Assembly (NCBI GenBank): GCA_001871015.1
Contig: MNUO01000119.1
Span: 1-7,002, forward strand
Direction of reading: 5' to 3'
DNA: 7,002 bases
Source of the DNA: Candidatus Desantisbacteria bacterium CG1_02_38_46
Lineage (GTDB): Bacteria; Desantisbacteria; UBA1551; UBA1559
Positions within the stretch are counted from its first letter, which is position 1, and the number at the start of each line of letters is the position of its first letter. The notes below the pieces were generated by a model. That model was not told where the DNA came from. It saw nothing but the letters and a program-made list of their open reading frames with translations, and ran no database searches. Shown here one piece after another: positions 3,551 through 7,002 of the stretch. Position numbers and translations under genes: made by a program.

Positions 3551-3628
3551 GTAACTCAGGGCTTTAGCCCTGATATCAAACCTTCCTTTCGCCGCTGCGA
3601 ACGGGTCTAATGAAAAGGTTTGAATTAC
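3551..3628. repeat. Palindromic element between pilN and pilO, same family as the pilA-upstream array
   Basis: The ends are inverted: GTAACTCA (3551-3558) and TGAATTAC (3621-3628). Inside are a hairpin TCAGGGCT-TT-AGCCCTGA (3556-3573), then ATATC-type linker bases, then AAACCTT (3578-3584) pairing with AAGGTTT (3615-3621). The loop between these arms carries a further small hairpin, TTCGC-CGCT-GCGAA (3588-3601). The design matches the 48-bp units at 6854-7002, but here the second hairpin has a 30-nt loop instead of 2 nt. The first stem has a paired change (GGG/CCC versus GGA/TCC). Its right end supplies the pilN stop codon TAA (3625-3627 on the minus strand). It looks like a MITE- or REP-type mobile palindrome lodged in the operon. 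Confidence 0.85.
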
Positions 3629-4242
3629 CTGAATGGACAGCGCAATTCAAATTCAACAATTTCTTTTTCACCAATTACCCCGGTGGTTGTACCCATAAAT
3701 TCTACATCGCTGAATGTTTCAAAAAAAGAAGGGTTGAATTTCAAATTATTCATAAAAACACCTATAAGATTTACAGCTTTTTCTCCTGGTAGAGCAAGCA
3801 CTTTTCCTCTTAAGATCAGAACATTTTTTACCACCGGGGCACCCCCGGGCTGAGAAACTGCCTGCTTGGATAAACTAAGAGAAGTAAGCCATATATTATC
3901 TGGAATAAAACTACTTATTTCGTTCAATTTTCTCGACCAGGAAAGTCTTGAGAACATCAACTGATCTATAATCTGGATTCTTTTTTCCATTTTATTTGCA
4001 TCTTCTTCTAAAATCCTGACCTCTTTAACCTCGGCTTGCAATTTATCTATCTCAGCTCTTATTCCTTTCAACTCTTTCTGCTTACTGTTTATCCTGACGC
4101 TGAGAAACACAAAAAGACTGAGAAAAGCAACAATCTCGCATGCTACTATTAATATCAGCAAAGTCTGGGTGGCTTCAAAAACCACTACTCTTCTTTTCTT
4201 TTTTCTCCTTAGCTGGGGAGGTAAAAGATTTATCTTAAGCAT
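3625..4242 (-). CDS. pilN: Type IV pilus inner-membrane protein PilN
   Basis: PilN recruits cytoplasmic PilM through its N-terminal peptide and dimerises with PilO in the periplasm. The 205-residue protein begins MLKINLLPPQLR, the conserved INLLP motif that binds the PilM cleft. A basic patch (12-18), a transmembrane helix (about 26-49), a coiled coil (about 52-92), and a ferredoxin-like domain (about 105-200) ending in VEFELRCPFR follow. The ATG at 4240-4242 lies within the end of pilM (8-nt overlap), implying coupled translation. The terminal TAA falls inside the palindromic element at 3551-3628. The protein still has the expected C-terminal strand, so the insertion appears to replace only the last codon or stop region. 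Confidence 0.95.
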   Translation of the reverse strand: MLKINLLPPQLRRKKKRRVVVFEATQTLLILIVACEIVAFLSLFVFLSVRINSKQKELKGIRAEIDKLQAEVKEVRILEEDANKMEKRIQIIDQLMFSRLSWSRKLNEISSFIPDNIWLTSLSLSKQAVSQPGGAPVVKNVLILRGKVLALPGEKAVNLIGVFMNNLKFNPSFFETFSDVEFMGTTTGVIGEKEIVEFELRCPFR

Positions 4243-6329: not shown

Positions 6330-6392
6330 CAAAAAAGAAAAAAGGCGGCCAAAGGCTCTAAAATTTCACGACTAAATAATGGCCGCCTTTTT
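6330..6392 (-). terminator. Intrinsic terminator of the pilin gene
   Basis: AAAAAGGCGGCC (6339-6350) and GGCCGCCTTTTT (6381-6392) form a perfect 12-bp stem around a 30-nt loop. On the minus strand the stem begins 16 nt after the pilin stop and is followed by TTTTTTCTTTTTT. The A-rich and T-rich flanks also allow function in the opposite direction. It ends the pilin as a single-gene transcript unit and marks the truncation border of the PIN remnant. Confidence 0.92.
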
Positions 6393-6408: not shown

Positions 6409-6828
6409 TTATTCATACTGAACGTGCGGATAGCCACCTGCAGCAGCACCGCTTCCAATGGAACACCAGGGAGTTCCTCCTACTGCAAATGTATTCACAG
6501 GCCCGGTGAGTCCTGTTTCTGCAGTTCCTATGTCATAGCTTGAACTATCCCCATAGTTTCCAGCTGATGGACAGCTCGGAGTCTTCTTGATGTAGGTAGG
6601 CGACAGGGAAGACATTGTAACACTGTCTCCATCTACCTTGGTAGCATCCATTGCGTATTGCTCAACTGCTGATTCAATCTGACGCAGATTCGCCTTGCAA
6701 GCATTTGCTCTGGACTTGGACCTTGCAGCCATAAAATTAGGAATAGCAATAGCTGACAGGATAGCTATAATCGCTACCACGATCATAATCTCAACCAGTG
6801 TAAAACCCTTTTCTCTTAACTTAATCAT
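6409..6828 (-). CDS. pilA: Type IV pilin (prepilin)
   Basis: This 139-residue prepilin is the likely fibre subunit. The leader MIKLREKG is cleaved by prepilin peptidase after G8, leaving methylated F9. The mature N-terminus FTLVEIMIVVAIIAILSAIAIPNF has the conserved Glu at mature position 5 (E13) and forms the assembly helix, continuing as ARSKSRANACKANLRQIESA. The C-terminal globular part is short (about residues 62-139) and Gly/Ser-rich, with cysteines at 44, 86 (PSCPSAG) and 122 (PWCSIG); C86 and C122 could form a disulfide. Mature length (131 aa) fits small type IVa-like pilins and also GspG-type pseudopilins, so fibre versus pseudopilin is not certain; the nearby pilMNOPQ favours a pilin. 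ATG at 6826-6828 follows the SD AAAGGTGGTGA. No clear promoter is visible in the repeat array upstream, and the gene ends at its own terminator. Confidence 0.9.
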   Translation of the reverse strand: MIKLREKGFTLVEIMIVVAIIAILSAIAIPNFMAARSKSRANACKANLRQIESAVEQYAMDATKVDGDSVTMSSLSPTYIKKTPSCPSAGNYGDSSSYDIGTAETGLTGPVNTFAVGGTPWCSIGSGAAAGGYPHVQYE

Positions 6829-6853
6829 TTATATCACCACCTTTCGCTCTTAA

Positions 6854-7002
6854 GATATCAAACCTGAAGGTTTGAGTTACAACATACAGATGTAACTCAG
6901 GACTTTAGTCCTGATATCAAACCTGAAGGTTTGAGTTACAACATACAGATGTAACTCAGGACTTTAGTCCTGATATCAAACCTGAAGGTTTGAGTTACAA
7001 CA
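6854..7002. repeat. 59-bp tandem array of palindromic elements upstream of pilA
   Basis: Two full 48-bp units (6892-6939, 6951-6998) and one half unit (6854-6880) are identical where they overlap, separated by the same 11-bp spacer AACATACAGAT (6881-6891, 6940-6950). The sequence continues into the next spacer at the window edge. Each unit has inverted ends GTAACTCA/TGAGTTAC and two internal hairpins: TCAGGACT-TT-AGTCCTGA and TCAAACCT-GA-AGGTTTGA. Neighbouring units also pair across the spacer (GAGTTACA 6874-6881 with TGTAACTC 6891-6898). The half unit stops 25 bp before the pilA ATG, just outside the SD, so the array occupies the region where the pilA promoter or leader should be. Confidence 0.93.

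Follow-up and report, generated by a model that had tools for sequence, protein, structure and literature searches.

The window analyzed here is a stretch of 7,002 bp that constitutes the entire contig C4 of genome G000, and its right edge is an assembly break located inside a repeat. The features of interest, a pilA-like type IV pilin gene with its ribosome-binding site and the tandem array that adjoins it on the upstream side, are listed in Table 1. Beyond the pilA stop codon, an inverted repeat at positions 6335-6391 (AAAAAGGCGGCCA...TGGCCGCCTTTTT) is likely the pilA terminator; the terminator scan missed it on account of its long loop. Elsewhere in the window, the pilQ-like secretin gene carries an exact 48-bp in-frame tandem duplication (positions 1938-2032) that doubles a stretch of 16 residues, EVKKEEIPKPREMISL.

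Structure of the array upstream of pilA

The initial annotation had described identical 59-bp repeats with three potential hairpins per period, the nearest copy cut in half, and had read them as the product of recent tandem amplification. Tandem Repeats Finder recovers this array with a 100% match between copies and a score of 298, and a separate repeat search finds the same identical copies of the 59-bp unit. Each period has the sequence GTAAC-(TCAGGAC TTTA GTCCTGA)-TA-(TCAAACC TGAA GGTTTGA)-GTTAC followed by the spacer AACATACAGAT, and thus consists of two inverted hairpins (TCAGGACTTTAGTCCTGA and TCAAACCTGAAGGTTTGA), each headed by GTAAC, together with a third, weaker hairpin that is closed over the spacer (GTTACAACATACAGATGTAAC); the earlier count of three is therefore right, with two main hairpins and one minor one. 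The copy nearest pilA is indeed a half unit that retains the second hairpin only. As the spacers are identical between units, the array has been amplified locally in tandem, in agreement with the earlier reading. At position 7002 the array is cut because the contig ends inside the repeat. As a single strand, the array folds far better than its shuffles (z scores of -6.7 as RNA and -9.8 as DNA).

Table 1. Positions of the repeat and gene features in the window (contig C4 of G000).
Feature	Position	Strand	Basis
Further REPIN of the family, located between pilN and pilO; an insert enlarges its second hairpin	3551..3628	+	sequence; REP pattern match 3551-3573
pilA-like type IV pilin of 139 aa (68% identity with the G001 pilin by BLASTP)	6409..6828	-	ORF; N_methyl PF07963; TIGR02532
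pilA ribosome-binding site AAAGGTGGTG	6835..6844	-	sequence
Tandem REPIN array with 2.5 copies of the 59-bp unit, truncated by the contig end	6854..7002		Tandem Repeats Finder and repeat search
Lone REP hairpin GTAACTCAAACCTTCAGGTTTGA, half REPIN adjoining the pilA ribosome site	6858..6880	-	pattern match
11-nt spacer AACATACAGAT between REPs; also in C116, C60, C32 and C77	6881..6891		sequence
Complete REPIN, GTAAC-hairpin A-TA-hairpin B-GTTAC	6892..6939	+	pattern match, alignment, pair counts
11-nt spacer AACATACAGAT, copy identical to 6881..6891	6940..6950		sequence
Second complete REPIN, identical to the one at 6892..6939	6951..6998	+	pattern match

The hairpin family and an associated transposase

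The array belongs to a large family of dispersed repeats. When it was searched against its own genome, 55 matches were obtained, their surroundings being many mosaics of the same two hairpins, and the 59-bp unit itself is present at dozens of other G000 sites. The core pattern GTAACTCANNNCTNNAGNNNTGA occurs in 250 exact copies in G000 and 123 in G001, the only related genome compared and a member of the same order, while a reversed-pattern control gave 0 in both. The complete two-hairpin REPIN pattern was found in 2 of 290 genomes, with 23 exact matches in G000 and 15 in G001 (control, 0). Most sites of the family adjoin unrelated genes. The arrays of G000 lie predominantly between ORFs (40 of the 43 that are classifiable; the other 3 overlap a called ORF); ORF calling simply took the longest frame in the stretches around the repeats, which makes the start codons approximate. 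At the G000 loci read, hairpin orientation relative to genes is unbiased (48:50 for hairpin A and 63:55 for hairpin B), and the hairpins lie a median of 26 nt from the upstream stop codon and likewise 26 nt from the downstream start codon. An enrichment between co-directional genes was considered as evidence for a leader role and dropped, as 36 of 37 versus 43 of 49 in the background (Fisher p 0.23) is no excess.

The family also enters into more complex elements. At six loci (L009, L037, L040, L043, L044 and L045), REP arrays are nested in a second palindromic element with the ends GGTGTCAGGTCTTGACA...TGTCAAGACCTGACACC, such that one family lies inside another. At another six (L008, L013, L014, L016, L022 and L025), they lie between AAGAAAAATCAGACCTGAAGGTCTGAGTTAC, or a variant of it, and TTTTGGTATAATTTCCTTAGCTAT, forming a composite repeat with a TATAAT-like box. 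Expanded hairpins resembling those of the pilN-pilO REPIN (TCAAACCTTCCTCC...GGATCTTCGAAAAGGTTTGAGTTAC) are located beside a RAYT gene in L104, at ~3637-3770.

An alignment of 19 REPINs from G000 and G001, 14 of them distinct, reveals pairing in 98.9% of cells. Both partners have changed in six of the pairs (19 cells), the covariation score was reached by 0 of 500 shuffles, and the signal is lost when the pairing partners are slid relative to one another. This compensatory pattern fits recognition of the hairpins as single-stranded DNA, a reading of the alignment for which an RNA role would not be needed.

The identity of the unit follows from its relationship to a transposase. Contig C23 of G001 holds two Y1 transposase genes of 160 codons, with hairpins of the family, as inverted REPs, on both sides of the genes. 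Both match Pfam PF01797 (Y1_Tnp), and both are classed as REP-associated tyrosine transposases (RAYTs) by NCBIfam NF047646, with 99.7 and 94.7 bits against a cut-off of 80. The best PDB match of the G001 RAYT is TnpA-REP 4er8, in whose alignment DHLH and YIFNNP are paired with EHMH and YIYINP, and the HUH motif and the catalytic tyrosine motif are present in the ORF. In the first copy the left end has the layout GTAACTCAGGCCTTTAGGCCTGA-gene and the right end gene-TCAGACCTGAAGGTCTGAGTTAC; joined together, the two ends reproduce the layout of the unit in the window. RAYT genes are reported to be always flanked by two inverted REPs (PMC2817692). Because the unit corresponds to the joined ends of the RAYT element and the RAYTs are flanked by these same hairpins, we identify the repeat as a tandem REPIN array. 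Outside the right ends of both RAYT copies lie tandem arrays with periods of 25 and 60 nt, so amplification is usual for this hairpin family.

The head of the hairpins is unusual. In G000, G001 and G087 it is GTAA, which departs from the canonical REP head GT[AG]G (PMC6006769) and is therefore called a variant here. In five other genomes, RAYT relatives are flanked by, or lie close to, hairpins with a similar core that are headed by GTAG. The loci L130-L137, from several genomes, provide a small series for head recognition in which RAYT relatives are accompanied by hairpins with a similar core and either GTAG or GTAA. A cognate RAYT was sought in the G000 assembly, which is ~88% complete, and was not found (best match, 28% identity); it may have been lost or may lie in unassembled sequence. 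Two other Y1 transposases of G000, on C60 and C109, were considered and set aside, as there is no family REP within the 1.5-2.5 kb read around them and other inverted repeats flank them.

Probable placement of the array in the pilA leader

A second G000 contig, C116 (locus L048), ends in the same array as C4 and in the right direction, with two alternating spacers, one of which is AACATACAGAT. This contig carries ftsK (6547-8574), a RodZ-like HTH gene (8600-8836) and, at 8988-9004, a predicted sigma-54 site (TTGGCACGGTTATTGCA) with 0 mismatches to YTGGCACG-N4-TTGCW. In G001, ftsK, the RodZ-like gene, a sigma-54 site with 1 mismatch (TTGGCACGGTTTTTGTT) and pilA follow one another in that order, without an array, and the pilA leader is ~50 nt long; the G000 and G001 genes are 72% (ftsK), 64% (RodZ-like) and 68% (pilA) identical. 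As gene order and direction on C116 match those of G001, we infer that the array connects C116 with C4 in reverse complement. A single exact overlap of 27 bases, inside the repeat, links the ends of the two contigs; if this overlap is true, the array is ~417 bp long and contains about seven hairpins of each kind. Contig C106 was considered as a partner of C4 and rejected; it begins inside a REP array that lacks the AACATACAGAT spacer. Directly upstream of the predicted pilA promoter, at ~8895-8985 of L048, lies an inverted repeat (ATCCCCCCTTCTTGCTTTC...GCAAGAAAGCAGGGGGGAT), a small palindrome that looks mobile.

On C116 the transcription start site is predicted near base 9015, ~3 nt ahead of the first hairpin, which starts at 9018. 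The array, of at least 417 bp, most likely lies in the pilA 5' UTR, downstream of the predicted promoter and ahead of the start codon, which would give a pilA leader of at least ~445 nt versus ~50 nt in G001. This placement is based on promoter sequence and synteny, and the C4-C116 join on synteny and the 27-base overlap rather than on reads. A search for rpoN in the ~88% complete G000 assembly did not find the gene; since three strong sigma-54 activator genes are present in G000 and G001 has rpoN, it is probably located in the missing part of the assembly. By eye, the same promoter can also be read as a sigma-70 promoter (TTGGCA-N17-TGTAAT in G000, with TATAAA in G001), in which case the start would also lie at the array.

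Predicted effect on pilin and proposed origin of the array

The initial annotation had suggested that the array, if transcribed, would form a leader that could affect pilin mRNA stability or expression, and that its copy number could serve as a switch. The leader placement agrees, by inference, with the predicted, mismatch-free sigma-54 promoter just beyond the array's far end on C116 and with the gene order in G001, whereas a dedicated switch is not borne out. Such a switch, in which variable copy number would set the stability or translation of the pilA mRNA, would be consistent with an array that separates the predicted promoter from the start codon, with the recent copy-number change recorded by the identical units, and with an RNA fold far stronger than that of shuffles. 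However, the hairpins stand beside many unrelated genes and in both orientations, no array is present at pilA in G001, and the predicted exposure of the ribosome site hardly changes when the array is removed (mean unpaired 0.63 with the array versus 0.66 without); moreover, a scan found no terminator-like sites, and the hairpins are without a terminator T-run. Arrays of the same kind also lie at unrelated sites, which in substance is the observation that the initial annotation itself had named as speaking against a leader role. With random orientation, unrelated neighbors and an unchanged ribosome site, a dedicated switch is unsupported, and we consider it unlikely. A narrower version, in which the REPIN array has been co-opted as the tunable leader of a sigma-54 pilin gene and block amplification varies leader length, hairpin number and pilin output among cells, appears to us somewhat more doubtful still. 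Given a ribosome site that remains exposed and hairpins without a T-run, the predicted effect of the array on pilin is most likely small and generic, acting through mRNA stability or leader length; mRNA stability may well be altered by a leader so long and structured.

Two further explanations concern the nature of the repeat itself. It could be a structured cis-regulatory RNA, a riboswitch or leader motif conserved for its function in mRNA leaders rather than a mobile element; the compensatory base changes speak for this, as does the position of 28 of 37 copies no more than 60 nt from a downstream start codon. Yet the same fraction (28 of 37) lies equally close to an upstream stop codon, compensation is also expected for REPs read as single-stranded DNA, an Rfam search of the window matched only a tRNA, orientation in G000 is without bias, and the same hairpins flank a transposase gene; we therefore regard this explanation as highly improbable. 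The fact that both the window and C116 end inside the array could point to an assembly artefact, namely a repeat collapse or a chimera at the contig end, but independent intact copies of the unit occur inside many contigs and in G001; the uncertainty is confined to how long the pilA array is in total, and an artefact is scarcely credible. Overall, the array is very probably a tandem REPIN cluster in the pilA leader, moved by a RAYT and locally amplified, with a small and generic effect on pilin.

For this tandem REPIN cluster we propose the following origin. The REPIN would be a non-autonomous miniature form of a RAYT element, that is, of an element encoding a single-strand HUH tyrosine transposase. 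One REPIN would have entered the pilA leader in the G000 lineage, immediately after the start site predicted for sigma-54. Slippage or unequal recombination would then have duplicated one or two REPINs at a time on the spot, and transcription through the resulting array would lengthen the 5' leader from ~50 nt to at least ~445 nt. Three elements of this scheme are observed in the sequences: the derivation of the unit from RAYT-element ends, the dispersal of the family through G000 and G001, and an array-free pilA in G001. Insertion in G000 as opposed to loss in G001 was judged from the mobility of the element with one related genome and no outgroup. The system is of interest as a REPIN/RAYT pair with an altered GTAA head from a poorly sampled bacterial order, and the change from GTAG to GTAA among related transposases offers a way to test how RAYTs recognize the head. 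In addition, G000 and G001 form a clear pair with and without an array in the predicted pilin leader, and the REPIN array explains why the assembly is broken at pilA.

In Geobacter sulfurreducens, pilA has an RpoN-dependent promoter, and the available text of that study gives the regulon consensus as TTGGCACGGTTTTTGCT (PMC2725144), from which the sites in G000 and G001 barely differ; the promoter as described in that text differs in that no REP array is seen there. REPINs composed of two inverted REPs, and tandem REPIN clusters with their flanks, are known from Pseudomonas fluorescens (PMC3116915). As in strain SBW25, the mobile unit here consists of two inverted REPs, near-identical tandem clusters include their flanks, and clusters lie beside RAYT genes; in SBW25, however, the head is GTGG or GTAG, as opposed to GTAAC here, and the doublet spacings are 71-110 bp, whereas the present REPIN is very compact, at 48 bp with 2-5 nt between its hairpins (PMC3116915). 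Unlike SBW25, the host here comes from an order represented by two genomes, and a literature search for REPs in Omnitrophica gave none. The GTAG-tagged REP superfamily shares with this family a short palindrome with an unpaired 5' tag, intergenic dispersal as singles, dimers and clusters, and an association with RAYTs, but the tag here is GTAA, and the text of that paper is without a GTAA family (PMC3733652). Enteric BIMEs are likewise REP mosaics, in which the orientation alternates and the linkers are fixed. They sit after a gene, unlike the pilA array, which is most likely positioned between a promoter and a start codon.
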